NCBI GenBank assembly: GCA_001803565.1
Contig: MHDQ01000179.1
Coordinates: forward strand, 1 to 14,009
Length of the DNA: 14,009 bases
Origin: Nitrospinae bacterium RIFCSPLOWO2_12_FULL_45_22
GTDB taxonomy: Bacteria; 2-12-FULL-45-22
Direction: 5' to 3'
Positions 8,908 to 13,884 of the stretch are shown here, piece by piece. The first letter of the stretch is position 1. The number at the start of each line of letters is the position of its first letter. Position numbers and translations under genes: made by a program. Under the pieces are notes generated by a model. It made no database searches. It was not told the DNA's origin and saw nothing but the letters and a program-made list of their open reading frames with translations.

Positions 8908-8975
8908 GGCAGGCGAGACGCCTGCCCTATTGGTGGAGGTGGTCCCAAATGGATAGGTCAGGCATCTTGCCTGAC
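8908..8975. repeat. Pair of 3-base-loop hairpins upstream of the GT2 gene
   Basis: GGCAGGCG-AGA-CGCCTGCC (8908-8926) and GTCAGGCA-TCT-TGCCTGAC (8957-8975) share the same architecture, 8-bp arms with a 3-base loop, separated by about 30 bases. The second abuts the MITE. They look like one repeat unit with two hairpins and lie in the presumed 5' leader of the GT2 mRNA. Confidence 0.65.
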
Positions 8976-9110
8976 TAGTGTATCGTTTCATAAAAACATT
9001 TACACTACTGTCATTTCGAGTGAAACGAGAAATCTTTTCCATATCAATGAGATAGAAAGATTTCTCCCTATGGTCGAAATGACAATCTTTTAATGAAACG
9101 CTATACTAGT
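8974..9110. mobile_element. 137-bp MITE with 22-23-bp terminal inverted repeats
   Basis: The left end ACTAGTGTATCGTTTCATAA (8974 onward, arm to 8995) is matched in reverse by the right end, which reads ACTAGTATAGCGTTTCATTA on the minus strand (arm 9088-9110). Only a few positions differ. Inside is a second inverted pair: GTCATTTCGA...GAGAAATCTTT (9010-9037) against its complement at about 9056-9083. There is no coding capacity, so movement would have needed a transposase in trans. The nested palindrome would fold almost end to end. No clear target duplication is seen beyond the CTAG at each terminus. Confidence 0.75.
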
Positions 9111-9398
9111 TTTCATATTTTTATAGCAGATAATGCTGGAATGGGCAAGGTAAAAAACTAATTGGAGTTCCCCCCCAAACTTTTATACCTGAAAGGTATA
9201 ATTGCATGACCATTAATGGTTTTAGGAAATTAGAAATCTGTGATTAAACCCGATGGCTATCTGGCAGCTTAATAGTGCTTTTATTTCCTGCCAGACAACT
9301 GATTGCTAAATATTAGTTTTGAGTGCTTTCGTAATAGCCTCTGGTGGCACATTAACAAATCATGCCGCTGAAATGCTTGACAGATAAAGATTTATCGA
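9111..9398. other. Non-coding spacer with isolated hairpins
   Basis: No credible gene. It holds the promoter above and three small palindromes: TATACCT/AGGTATA (9184-9200), ACCATTAATGGT (9209-9220), and TCTGGCAG/CTGCCAGA (9260-9267 and 9288-9295, 20-base loop). A perfect TTGACA occurs at 9377-9382, but no -10 follows at proper spacing. This is the spacer between the two oppositely directed gene sets. Confidence 0.5.
9120..9148 (-). promoter_or_regulatory. Candidate sigma-70 promoter with extended -10 for the GT2/polysaccharide locus
   Basis: On the minus strand TTGCCC (9143-9148) is followed after exactly 17 bases by TATAAA (9120-9125), with TGC directly before it, an extended -10. Transcription would start close to 9112, so the MITE and paired hairpins would form a ~235-base leader ahead of the GT2 ATG. 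Matches are 4/6 and 5/6; in AT-rich DNA some chance matching is expected. Confidence 0.5.
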
Positions 9399-9518
9399 GG
9401 CCAAAAAATTGGCCTTTTCGGCCAACTTTTTGGCCACTATGGCTCAAACTGGCCACAGTAAAGGGATTACGAGTCAGCAAAAGGTAAAATTTCGATTTTC
9501 GCGGCCAACTTTTTGGCC
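9399..9518. repeat. Three GGCCAA-n4-TTGGCC palindromes
   Basis: Copies are GGCCAAAAAATTGGCC (9399-9414), GGCCAACTTTTTGGCC (9420-9435) and an identical GGCCAACTTTTTGGCC (9503-9518). A degenerate GGCTCAAACTGGCC lies at 9441-9454. The first is followed by TTTT, the third by TTTTT. The 48-bp interval between 9455 and 9502 is not repeated. They may be operator-like sites, terminator hairpins or a mobile repeat. Confidence 0.65.
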
Positions 9519-9523
9519 TTTTT
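9503..9523 (+). terminator. Possible weak intrinsic terminator on the plus strand
   Basis: A 6-bp stem GGCCAA/TTGGCC with a 4-base loop is followed at once by TTTTT (9519-9523). The stem is short for a strong terminator. It lies upstream of the unknown gene pair, where it could shield them from readthrough or attenuate their leader. Confidence 0.3.
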
Positions 9524-9829
9524 GAAGGGAGCCAGTATCCTTAATTTTGCCCCAAAAATTTTTTAAATTTTTTGAACTCCTTCTTCAGATAGCTTTGTCT
9601 TTGCAAAATTTCGCAATCTTACCAAGGATTATTCTCCATATCTGGTCCCTTATGTGGCACATAATTTGCTTCTAATAAACCCATAGTAAGAGCCAACCAA
9701 CTTGTAATAAGCAGCATTCCAAATATTCTTTCTTCAAGAAGGAGGTGAAGCGGGGAAGAAACGTAGAGCAATCTTGTCCATGCAAGACTCTAAAAAGTGC
9801 AAGAGTTTAGTTAGTAAAAATACCGTATC
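9524..9829. other. Leader/spacer without recognisable gene
   Basis: AT-rich spacer. An AAAAATTTTTTAAATTTTTT tract lies near 9553-9572, and a solitary AAGGAGGTGA Shine-Dalgarno sequence at 9739-9748 has no start codon at working distance. No promoter for the downstream genes could be named with confidence. Confidence 0.4.
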
Positions 9830-9830
9830 A

Positions 9831-9836
9831 AGGAGG
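9831..9836 (+). promoter_or_regulatory. Shine-Dalgarno site deciding the start of the 265-aa unknown gene
   Basis: AGGAGG (inside AAGGAGGTGA, a full match to the anti-SD) lies eight bases before the ATG at 9845. The GTG at 9836 that lengthens the frame by three codons overlaps the site itself and is rejected. Confidence 0.8.
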
Positions 9837-9844
9837 TGATAGAT

Positions 9845-10642
9845 ATGTCTTTTAATTATGATGTATGGGGAATGGCGATAAGTTTTGCCCAAAACTATCC
9901 CAAAGGATATAAAAAGGTTTCTATGATTTATGGAGGGGGGAGTATACATCTATCAGAAAAGAAGCCCGATGACTTCAACCTAGTCATTTTTGAAGATGAA
10001 GATCCTCCAGGTAGCGGACTCCGAGTTTATACAGCATTGAGAACCGCCTTAGGCGGTTTATATTTTGTTGAAACGGGGGAAAAAGCAGAGGGTGTTCTTA
10101 TTATACAAATGTATCCCGGAGTTCAGTTATGGCCTACATGGCTACAATTACCCGAGAGTGTAGGGCAGGAATTCAGGTATCCTAATCCGCCCAATGCAGA
10201 AATAAGGCACCTGGGTCCTTCATGTGAAATTAGAGCTACATATCCACCCCACTACAACAATTTTAGAAATTGCATCTTATGGTATGGTGATATTAATGTG
10301 ACCAATAATTACGAAGGGCAACCTAACTGGACAATTTATCCACCTGAATCAGGTATGAATGGTATGGGTGTGAGAAAAGTTGTTGTTACTATTAGTTATC
10401 CCAATGATAATAACCTTTCTGAATGGTCTGCTGCAGATTGTGGGCCTGGGGGAGCAGAGGGTCAACCGACCTTTGGGGTATTAGCTTATGGCCACTTTAG
10501 GTTTATCGGTACAGATAAAGAAAGTCAATGGAAAAATCAAAATTATTATGAAAGATTATCAGAAGTTTGGTGGGGTAATTATACCTCTGGTCCCGTTGAT
10601 TTATTCTTACGATCCTGTGCATATGGAGACCGGTGGTATTGA
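9845..10642 (+). CDS. Protein of unknown function (265 aa), beta-rich
   Basis: Not recognised. The start ATG has an ideal AGGAGG eight bases upstream. The protein opens MSFNYDVWGMAISFAQNYPK with no signal peptide, lipobox or membrane helix, so it should be cytoplasmic unless exported by another route. It is rich in Gly, Pro, Trp, Tyr and Asn, with alternating hydrophobic stretches suggesting beta sheet (VSMIYGGGSIHL, FNLVIFEDEDPPGSGLRV, EGVLIIQMYPGVQLWPTW, VRKVVVTISYPNDNN, FGVLAYGHFRFIG). Four cysteines occur in the C-terminal half (GPSCEIRA, NCILWYG, ADCGPG, RSCAYG). Seventeen bases separate it from the next gene, so the two are probably co-transcribed. Codon use is normal and the frame is intact, supporting a real gene. 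A self-assembling or ligand-binding beta domain is only a guess. Confidence 0.75.
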   Translation: MSFNYDVWGMAISFAQNYPKGYKKVSMIYGGGSIHLSEKKPDDFNLVIFEDEDPPGSGLRVYTALRTALGGLYFVETGEKAEGVLIIQMYPGVQLWPTWLQLPESVGQEFRYPNPPNAEIRHLGPSCEIRATYPPHYNNFRNCILWYGDINVTNNYEGQPNWTIYPPESGMNGMGVRKVVVTISYPNDNNLSEWSAADCGPGGAEGQPTFGVLAYGHFRFIGTDKESQWKNQNYYERLSEVWWGNYTSGPVDLFLRSCAYGDRWY

Positions 10643-10646
10643 AACC

Positions 10647-10653
10647 GGAGGGG
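10647..10653 (+). promoter_or_regulatory. Shine-Dalgarno site of the 112-aa unknown gene
   Basis: GGAGGGG ends six bases before the ATG at 10660, which selects this ATG over the in-frame GTG at 10633 (nine codons earlier, overlapping the end of the previous gene). Confidence 0.65.
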
Positions 10654-10659
10654 AAAACT

Positions 10660-10998
10660 ATGTTTTTATTAAAACCTTTAGATGCAATGGAGGGGACTTA
10701 CATGGTATTTTTAAAGAATGTCGCTCATGATACATCAAAAGGCGGAGGAGGTGGATGGAGTTTCTTATACTTTAGGGTAAATAAGTCGGTGATGCCCGCG
10801 AAACCTTCCTCTTATATTGGGGAGTTGGTCTATCCAGGCCCGGATGGTGGTGCTACTTCGGTAATAAAAATGGATTCTATGAATACCGCCCTGGATTTTG
10901 GAGACTATTGGATATTGCAGTTTGAATACCGAACCATTGACGGATCATCAGTGCCGAACGCACCATATGTGGCTAATATCGTAGCCTACTTTGGTTGA
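10660..10998 (+). CDS. Protein of unknown function (112 aa), partner of the 265-aa protein
   Basis: Not recognised. The 112 residues open MFLLKPLDAMEGTYMVFLKN and contain a Gly run (SKGGGGGWSFLYFRVNK) and a C-terminal beta-like stretch (YWILQFEYRTIDG, YVANIVAYFG). No signal peptide, membrane helix, zinc site or helix-turn-helix is seen, and there is no cysteine. It starts 17 bases after the 265-aa gene with its own good ribosome site, in the same strand and style (Gly/Pro/Tyr/Trp-rich, beta-prone), so the two probably work together or form one complex. The stop lies within the first arm of the stem-loop at 10997-11093. Confidence is in the gene being real, not in any function. Confidence 0.7.
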   Translation: MFLLKPLDAMEGTYMVFLKNVAHDTSKGGGGGWSFLYFRVNKSVMPAKPSSYIGELVYPGPDGGATSVIKMDSMNTALDFGDYWILQFEYRTIDGSSVPNAPYVANIVAYFG

Positions 10999-11093
10999 TG
11001 CCAAAAAGACTATAAATGCAGAGCAAGCTTTGTCACAATAGCTTTAAAAATAGGTTGCAGTGGCTAAGCTTGCTCGATTCCGTCCATGGCATC
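10997..11093 (+). other. Nested stem-loop between the unknown pair and the NHL-repeat gene
   Basis: Three helices nest in order: GATGCC (10997-11002) with GGCATC (11088-11093), GAC (11008-11010) with GTC (11082-11084), and GAGCAAGCTT (11021-11030) with AAGCTTGCTC (11066-11075), a perfect 10-bp core. The 35-base terminal loop contains TAGC...GCTA that could pair further. There is no T-run after it, so it is not an ordinary terminator. It could be an mRNA processing or stability hairpin, a structured leader of the NHL gene, or a repeat. I could not match it to a known riboswitch consensus. Confidence 0.5.
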
Positions 11094-11120
11094 TTACTGT
11101 TCTTAGTGGCCTGAACTATT

Positions 11121-13358
11121 ATGCTTAACATTATTCAATATTTAGTAATTCTGAGGATAAAAATCATACTGTCTGTGGAAAAAGTAATAAGGCGGAAATA
11201 TGTCTTGCTTTCTCTTCTAGGCATAGTAATCAGCCTTATCCTAATACCTAGTCAGGCTTTAACTGAACCCAACACCTATATAAGGATATGGCCAGAGTTA
11301 CCCGGGCCCTGGTATTTCAGATACCCTGAAGGGATAGCAATAGACAGGGATAATAATGTCTATATAGGTGATGGTTATAGTCACATCCAGAAATTTGACG
11401 CCAATGGCCGATTGATCTCCAAATGGGGTGGCTATGGCAGTGGCGATGGCCAGTTTATCCGCTCTCGAGGGATAGCAATAGATAATTCAGGAAATGTTTA
11501 TGTAGTTGATAATGGTAATAACAGAATCCAGAAATTTGATGCTAATGGTCGCTTTATCAGGAAATGGGGCGAATATGGTAGCAGCGATGGCCAGTTTGAA
11601 TACCCTGAAGGGATAGCGATAGATAGTTCGGGGAATGTTTATGTAGCTGATACTTACAATCATAGGATCCAGAAATTTGATCCCAATGGTAACTTTATCA
11701 CTAAATGGGGCAGTTATGGTAGCGGTGATGGCCAGTTTATTTGGCCGAAGGGCGTTGCTGTAAACTTTGCTGGTGACGTATATGTAGGTGAAGATTATAT
11801 AGCTGATAGCGGTAATCACAGGATTCAGAAATTTGATGCTAATGGTCGCTTTATCAGGAAATGGGGCGAATATGGTAGCAGCGATGGCCAGTTTAACCAC
11901 CCTGAATGGATAGCTATAGATGGTTCAGGGAATGTTTATGTGGCTGATACCTACAACTTTAGGATTCAGAAGTTTGATCCCAATGGTAATTTTATTACTA
12001 AATGGGGCAGCTATGGTAGTGGCGATGGCCAGTTTTCTAGTATTAGCGGGATAGCGGTGGGCAGCTTAGGGAAAGTCTATGTTGTGGATTTCGGCAATAA
12101 CCGAGTCCAGAATTTTGACACTGAGGGTAACCTAATCGCAAAATGGCAAAGCAGTGGTATTAGTGATGGCTATTTCACTAACCCCGGAGATGTAGCGATA
12201 GATAGTTCAGGGAATGTGTATGTAGCCGATAGCGGCAATCATAGAATCCAGAAGTTTGATGCCGACGGCAGGCTCATTACTAAATGGGGCAGTGAAGGTA
12301 CTGGTGACGGTGAGTTTAAATATCCAGCCAGGGTAGGAGTGGATAGTTTAGGAAAGGTCTATGTGTTAGATAGTGTAGATAGTGGCAATCGTAGGGTCCA
12401 GAGGTTTGACGCCAATGGCCAGTTCATTACAAAGTGGGAAGTCGGGGGGATGGTTGGTAGTGGTCCTGTCATTGGTATCTTAGATATGGCAGTAGATAAT
12501 TCAGGTAATGTGTATCTTGCAGATAATTATTATTATCGGTTTTATAATTTTATTAATGGCCGAATCTTGAAGTTTGATTCCAACGGTAAATTCATTACTG
12601 AATGGGAGAGGGCTGACGTATGGTGGCAGCCAATGGGAATAGCGGTAGACAATATGGGTTCTGTGTATGTTGCCGATAGGGTTAATAAAGAAATTGTTAA
12701 GTTTGACTCCAACGGAGGCTTTATTACTAAATGGGGGGGCAGGGGTAGTGGAACCGGTCAGTTCTCTGAACTGTGGGCAATAGCAGTAGATAGCGCCAGC
12801 AATGTCTACGTAAATGCTGATTCCCAAATCCAGAGGTTTGACTCGGGTGGTGGCTTTATCACTAAATGGGGCAGTTATGGCGGTGATATTCTTCAGTTCG
12901 GTGGAAGTGTCGAGATAGCGGTAGACAATTCGGGCAATGTTTATGTAGCTGATAGCGTTAATAACCGTATCCAGATTTTCCCACCGAATCCCTCTATAAT
13001 GTTGCATCTTAATAATGATAGCTTCCGGCCAGATGGTATATTGGATTTATCTATCGACATCTGGGCAGGTACTGATAATTATATTGCCGATGCATATTTA
13101 GCCCTACTAGCACCTGATGGCAGGCTCTTCTTCTGGGGTCCGAGATTGAAGAGTTTCAGTGAGAAAGTCCAACCTGTATGTAGCTCCTGTGCGGTAGAGA
13201 ATTATTCGGAAGTTATTATGTCCATACCTCTTGATGCCTCTATCACTATCGGACTCTATACTTTCTATGCGGTGCTGACCAAGGTAGGAAGTAATCCTCT
13301 GGAGCAAAATAATTGGCTCAGCAATCTAGCTCAAGCTACCTGTAAGTTTACAAAATAA
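11121..13358 (+). CDS. Secreted protein with twelve NHL repeats (double beta-propeller)
   Basis: An exported 745-residue protein. A positive stretch (EKVIRRKY) and hydrophobic core (VLLSLLGIVISLILIP) ending SQA-LTEP form a signal peptide. Twelve repeats follow, of type GIAIDSSGNVYVADTYNHRI, then QKFDPNGNFITKWGSYGSGD. The count fits two six-bladed NHL propellers. Blades 4, 8 and 9 carry short insertions. After the last blade (...NNRIQIFPPNPS) comes a ~120-residue domain (LHLNNDSFRPDGILDLSIDI ... GLYTFYAVLTKVGSNPLEQN), a beta-sandwich commonly found at the end of such proteins. NHL propellers usually bind proteins or glycans; catalytic use is rare. Start is unsure: ATG 11121 lacks a Shine-Dalgarno site, and GTG 11175 would give a more typical signal peptide. 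It follows the unknown pair after a structured 122-base gap. Confidence 0.88.
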   Translation: MLNIIQYLVILRIKIILSVEKVIRRKYVLLSLLGIVISLILIPSQALTEPNTYIRIWPELPGPWYFRYPEGIAIDRDNNVYIGDGYSHIQKFDANGRLISKWGGYGSGDGQFIRSRGIAIDNSGNVYVVDNGNNRIQKFDANGRFIRKWGEYGSSDGQFEYPEGIAIDSSGNVYVADTYNHRIQKFDPNGNFITKWGSYGSGDGQFIWPKGVAVNFAGDVYVGEDYIADSGNHRIQKFDANGRFIRKWGEYGSSDGQFNHPEWIAIDGSGNVYVADTYNFRIQKFDPNGNFITKWGSYGSGDGQFSSISGIAVGSLGKVYVVDFGNNRVQNFDTEGNLIAKWQSSGISDGYFTNPGDVAIDSSGNVYVADSGNHRIQKFDADGRLITKWGSEGTGDGEFKYPARVGVDSLGKVYVLDSVDSGNRRVQRFDANGQFITKWEVGGMVGSGPVIGILDMAVDNSGNVYLADNYYYRFYNFINGRILKFDSNGKFITEWERADVWWQPMGIAVDNMGSVYVADRVNKEIVKFDSNGGFITKWGGRGSGTGQFSELWAIAVDSASNVYVNADSQIQRFDSGGGFITKWGSYGGDILQFGGSVEIAVDNSGNVYVADSVNNRIQIFPPNPSIMLHLNNDSFRPDGILDLSIDIWAGTDNYIADAYLALLAPDGRLFFWGPRLKSFSEKVQPVCSSCAVENYSEVIMSIPLDASITIGLYTFYAVLTKVGSNPLEQNNWLSNLAQATCKFTK
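11529..11894 (+). repeat. 69-bp exact direct repeat inside the NHL gene, 297 bp apart
   Basis: Bases 11529-11597 and 11826-11894 are identical (69 of 69), and the flanking blade sequence remains highly similar. The 297-base period is 99 codons, two blades. Blades 2-3 and 4-5 therefore look like a recent in-frame duplication or gene-converted pair, in contrast to the more diverged blades 6-11. Confidence 0.85.
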
Positions 13359-13638: not shown

Positions 13639-13659
13639 TTTATCCTGGAGGTGATAGGA

Positions 13660-13884
13660 GTGCCGGCAAAGAACCCTAGGATTAATCTGGTACTAGAAAA
13701 ATCCCTTTATGATTATATTAAGTACCTTGCTAAAAAGGAAGGTGTATCTTTATCGCTAAAAGCCCGCGATTTATTAAAAGATGCATTAGAAGCAAGAGAA
13801 GATATGGCTTTAGCGAAAATTGCGGGAGATAGAGAAAAGACCTTCGACAAATCTAAGGCTTTAACCCATAGCCAGGTCTGGTAA
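13660..13884 (+). CDS. Ribbon-helix-helix antitoxin (RelB/CopG-like)
   Basis: A 74-residue DNA-binding antitoxin expected to repress its own operon and neutralise a RelE/ParE-type toxin. It begins PAKNPRINLVLEKSLYDYIK, a short beta strand (RINLVL) followed by helix 1, then KEGVSLSLKARDLLKDALEA, helix 2 of the ribbon-helix-helix fold. The C-terminal half (REKTFDKSKALTHSQVW) is the usual toxin-binding tail of this family. The GTG at 13660 is chosen because GGAGG (13647-13651) lies eight bases before it; a GTG at 13651 overlaps that site. A TTG one base after the stop opens a toxin-like frame, which appears truncated, so the antitoxin may now be an orphan. Confidence 0.8.
   Translation: MPAKNPRINLVLEKSLYDYIKYLAKKEGVSLSLKARDLLKDALEAREDMALAKIAGDREKTFDKSKALTHSQVW

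Follow-up and report, generated by a model that had tools for sequence, protein, structure and literature searches.

The closest described counterparts of the locus analyzed here are catalogues of novel gene families, short palindromic repeats of bacterial genomes and beta-propeller proteins. One of these catalogues, FESNov, draws on 149,842 genomes and contains 404,085 novel families (PMC10849945). The two adjacent genes at the center of this study, termed A and B, resemble FESNov entries (PMC10849945) in lacking detectable relatives in known families and in originating from an almost unsampled lineage. They differ in that the catalogue's entries are families judged evolutionarily significant, whereas A and B are single sequences, with no second member of either family found among 386 genomes. 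Two dispersed elements near the pair are comparable to REP and MITE-like repeats (PMC3733652, PMC2229807), as both are short, palindromic, intergenic where read and present in several to many copies per genome, and the upstream element (8974-9110) additionally carries terminal inverted repeats. Unlike the described repeats, neither was matched to a named family, and a search of Rfam gave no match in the window. The protein encoded downstream of the pair meets the Pfam cut-off for NHL beta-propeller proteins (PF01436), with ten repeats passing on their own, a likeness that concerns this neighbor only and not A or B.

The analyzed stretch of DNA, termed the window, covers 14,009 bases at the left end of contig C179, which is 17,431 bases long and belongs to a draft genome of 3.67 Mb (321 contigs, 85% complete). 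The lineage is represented sparsely; its order offers one other genome for comparison, which is 68% complete. On the minus strand, the window contains a glycan-synthesis cluster encoding glycosyltransferases, a flippase-like protein, UbiA, a DUF362 protein and an LPG-synthase-like membrane protein, with O-antigen-ligase-like and asparagine-synthase-like proteins on the same strand at or past the right end of the window. The names of the flippase-like, O-antigen-ligase-like and asparagine-synthase-like proteins were given by inspection. The plus strand between 9845 and 13884 carries four genes, encoding A, B, the NHL protein and a ribbon-helix-helix protein.

The reading that we favor, with some reserve, is that A and B are real genes translated together as a lineage-restricted orphan (ORFan) pair, situated within a low-GC3 plus-strand island in the glycan-synthesis cluster and probably acquired horizontally. 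The pair is novel in sequence but a familiar kind of thing; since orphan genes are common in uncultivated bacteria, we regard it as a modest finding, and its interest will stay modest unless relatives show conserved pairing. If real and conserved, A-B would be one more lineage-specific protein system invisible to current databases.

Coding evidence and predicted properties of A and B

Gene A (9845-10642, plus strand) is an intact open reading frame for an orphan protein of 265 amino acids with a pI of 5.05 and four cysteines. It is preceded by a Shine-Dalgarno site (9829-9840, plus strand) that is a near-perfect complement of the 16S rRNA 3' end; the sequence CAAGGAGGUGAU forms 11 consecutive pairs with the 3' end from the same genome, GGATCACCTCCTTTCT, at -18.1 kcal/mol. 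This value lies beyond the 1% quantile (-15.4 kcal/mol) obtained from every ATG of that strand and is the strongest match among the starts tested. Among 200 shuffled windows, none contained 265 codons in a row without a stop, and the frame showed clear 3-base periodicity (z 8.1); codon-usage frame scores, unlike periodicity, did not single it out. A is certainly coding, and its strong ribosome site leads us to expect a product that merits a search in proteomes.

Gene B (10660-10998, plus strand) is likewise intact and encodes 112 amino acids. Its Shine-Dalgarno site, GGAGGGG at 10647-10653 (plus strand, approximate to a base or two), pairs at -11.3 kcal/mol, beyond the 5% quantile of the same set of ATGs. 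Taken alone, the length of the frame is near the limit of chance expectation: it belongs to a stop-free stretch of 132 codons, and runs of that length occurred 0.55 times per shuffled window. Its 3-base periodicity reached z 2.4. B is nevertheless probably coding because of its place and its ribosome site. The original prediction of two intact frames 17 bases apart, each with a strong Shine-Dalgarno site, therefore agrees with our measurements, with the site of B good and that of A the strongest of those tested. Since the gap is short and both ribosome sites are good, A and B probably share one transcript.

Both proteins are acidic and rich in glycine, proline, tryptophan and tyrosine, as had been noted before; by residue counts, these four together account for 30% of the residues in A and 27% of those in B. 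Inspection revealed no signal peptide in A or in B, again as predicted, and both would thus be cytoplasmic. Comparisons of A with B and of A with the NHL protein showed no similarity. The earlier description of both proteins as beta-rich held weakly for B and was not confirmed for A. AlphaFold2, run without relatives, gave a pLDDT of 32 for A, a model too poor for structure search. For B, it returned an all-beta model with six strands at low confidence (pLDDT 57.8), from which B is likely a small all-beta protein. Structure searches, suggested originally for both proteins, were run with this low-confidence model and gave no significant match: the best Foldseek E values were 0.045 against the PDB and 0.019 against viral proteins, and VIA-align Z scores did not exceed 7.4, a level that the program itself describes as typical for models lacking a clear match. 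In both searches, ferredoxin reductases, efflux adaptors, ATPase barrels and helicase barrels appeared at background level as candidate folds for B, and no known family stood out, although B may still belong to one. Under the favored reading, A and B would be two soluble, largely beta proteins that probably form a complex. That they bind surfaces or glycans, or are a phage-derived structural remnant, is a guess to which we attach little weight.

Two sequence features precede A. A second strong Shine-Dalgarno-like sequence, AAGGAGGTGAAG, lies in the region 9739-9810 and is followed by very short frames only; this region may represent a leader peptide or what is left of a gene. Farther upstream, 9394-9519 contains nested GGCCAA...TTGGCC palindromes and terminator-like T runs.

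Searches for relatives

Neither A nor B matched Pfam (up to an E value of 10), NCBIfam, PHROGs or PADLOC, in line with the claim that both belong to no recognized family. PDB sequences yielded no credible match, and no relative of either protein was found in phage records, plasmid records, IMG/VR or GTDB contigs, where scans with one sequence detect close relatives only. The 386 whole genomes, including the single order-mate (68% complete), contained no credible relative, and none was found elsewhere in the source genome. Two matches of A, one within a YicC-like gene of another genome (G002) and one within a membrane protein of its own genome, were at chance level. In the collections searched, A and B thus have no detectable homologue outside their lineage, which makes them ORFans with respect to single-sequence queries; because such queries miss distant relatives, 'orphan' here means that none is detectable. 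Neither of the two findings that had been named as arguments against novelty, clear homology to a known family and homologues that never occur as a pair, was seen, solely for want of any detectable homologue.

An alternative that we consider unlikely, though the best placed of those weighed here, is that A and B belong to a known family from which they have diverged too far for single-sequence search to reveal it. It draws on two weak matches of B, which turned up in several genomes. One, at about 30% identity over 80 residues with at most one gap, is to a protein named by inspection as a class II ribonucleotide reductase. The other is to what we take, by inspection, to be a DUF4091-like protein, which has the motif YPGPDG in common with B. 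On these chosen targets, both matches beat 500 shuffles of B. Against a profile of four class II ribonucleotide reductases, B scored 10.5 bits (best of 1,000 shuffles, 6.4), and against a profile of two DUF4091-like proteins, 9.7 bits. These targets were, however, picked as the best among hundreds of genomes, and about four matches at an E value of 0.01 are expected by chance over 386 genomes; four genomes besides the source genome gave one. As the two matches overlap on B, involve different families at similar scores of around 10 bits and are accompanied by silence from Pfam up to an E value of 10, they are best read as chance similarities between sequences. We rejected B as a fragment of a class II ribonucleotide reductase (no Pfam or NCBIfam match, about 10 bits) and as a piece of a DUF4091-like protein (no Pfam match up to an E value of 10).

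The spacer repeat and the NHL gene

The original prediction combined A and B with the downstream NHL gene into a three-gene unit with two small partner proteins. In such a unit, A and B would be expressed and act with the exported propeller, for example in surface binding; we consider this rather improbable. The arrangement itself is suggestive, with A, B and the NHL gene consecutive on one strand and the first ATG of the NHL gene (11121) separated from B by 122 bases, and the GC3 values of A and the NHL gene both lie below those of the minus-strand neighbors. The B-NHL gap is, however, filled by a palindromic repeat of the dispersed type. At this position, the nested stem-loop noted before does exist, with arms at 11021-11036 and 11060-11075 and a folding z of -3.2 relative to shuffles, but our analysis did not confirm that it belongs to the unit: it is part of a repeat copy (11016-11122) with six further matches in the genome, and the spacer is therefore not specific to A-B-NHL.

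These six matches are 73-84% identical and are located on contigs C4, C11, C292, C81 (two) and C265 (partial). The element measures about 105 bases in the window and is longer in other copies, and both orientations occur. Aligned in one orientation, five of the matches share the element. Most copies end in ...CTTGGTGGCTGAACGGTTAC, equivalent to about 11103-11122 in the window, and the hairpin is retained in the copies that were aligned. The three copies read with their surroundings are intergenic and adjoin unrelated genes. Being a dispersed repeat, the spacer is no evidence for an A-B-NHL unit, and its location between the genes leaves the link of A-B to the NHL gene weak. The case shows that a reader confined to a single window can mistake a dispersed palindromic repeat for a stem-loop specific to one operon.

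The NHL gene (11175-13358, plus strand) encodes a protein with a likely signal peptide and a PF01436 match (E value 7e-80) in 10 stretches. The gene was thus recognized correctly in the prediction, while its count of 12 repeats compares with 10 NHL stretches that Pfam accepts individually. Because the shared repeat end maps to about 11103-11122, ATG 11121 sits at the edge of the repeat and without a ribosome site (-2.8 kcal/mol). GTG 11175 (-5.6 kcal/mol) is the likelier start, also giving the more usual signal peptide. Even there, the ribosome site is weak, which disfavors the three-gene unit, as does the contrast between a seemingly exported NHL protein and the lack of signal peptides in A and B. 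NHL repeats are present on six other contigs, the C-terminal region of the NHL protein recurs in further proteins and no relative of A or B was found near the genome's other NHL places. With NHL proteins occurring elsewhere without A or B, the three-gene unit is unsupported. In the favored reading of an independent A-B pair, the NHL protein would be a separate exported propeller that lies downstream by happenstance.

The NHL protein also passes the NCBIfam cut-off for ScyF (366 versus 350 bits) and touches PD-T4-6 in PADLOC, in both cases most likely because the scores of many repeats add up.

Composition and origin of the plus-strand stretch

Dispersed repeats flank the A-B pair on both sides. 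The left flank of the island carries a MITE-like element (8974-9110). Its inverted ends lie near CTAGTATAGCGTTTC and AAACGCTATACTAG, and it contains the palindrome TGTCATTTCGAG...GAAATGACA internally. The genome holds about 40 matches to it, although some are a single place matched on both strands. The neighborhood is a place of repeated insertion. Compared to the minus-strand genes (GC3 0.485), third-position GC contents are lower in A (0.308, z -5.5), B (0.407, z -1.6), the NHL gene (0.402, z -3.9) and the ribbon-helix-helix gene (0.347, z -2.4). This low-GC3 plus-strand stretch fits a horizontally acquired island, and A and B probably arrived by horizontal transfer; expression or strand effects instead of transfer could also account for the low GC3. 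Since the lineage is almost unsampled, with one order-mate at 68% completeness, A and B could also be old in the lineage rather than acquired. No integrase, tRNA or flanking direct repeats of at least 12 bases marking an island were found in the window, and the longest word shared by the island flanks, at 11 bases, is itself a ribosome site.

We also weighed whether A and B are fast-evolving structural or accessory proteins left behind by a prophage or another mobile element, the rest of which was lost. Orphan sequence, low GC3, repeat-rich surroundings and a nearby ribbon-helix-helix gene would suit such an origin, and the viral fold matches of B include tail proteins, all above an E value of 0.01. 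These fold matches are at background level, however; searches of PHROGs, phage records and IMG/VR gave no match and no integrase, capsid or tail gene was seen in the window, so that we think this origin improbable. Very improbable, in our estimate, is a further scenario in which A and B, translated at high levels and with new folds, form an undescribed two-protein system that is restricted to this almost unsampled lineage and works alongside the NHL propeller on glycans or at the cell surface.

At the right end of the plus-strand stretch, the ribbon-helix-helix gene (13651-13884, plus strand) is antitoxin-like, and no neighboring toxin gene was seen. Its start is likelier GTG 13660, because 13651 falls inside the ribosome site GGAGGTGATAG. 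Directly beyond the window, the contig contains a run of Ns (contig 14010-14034; contig 13925-14107 equals L033 5926-6108). The peptide RVWNPLVAGISPDARDIGIAVGEISW flanks this run on both sides, and the duplication is likely a scaffolding artifact at an assembly gap.
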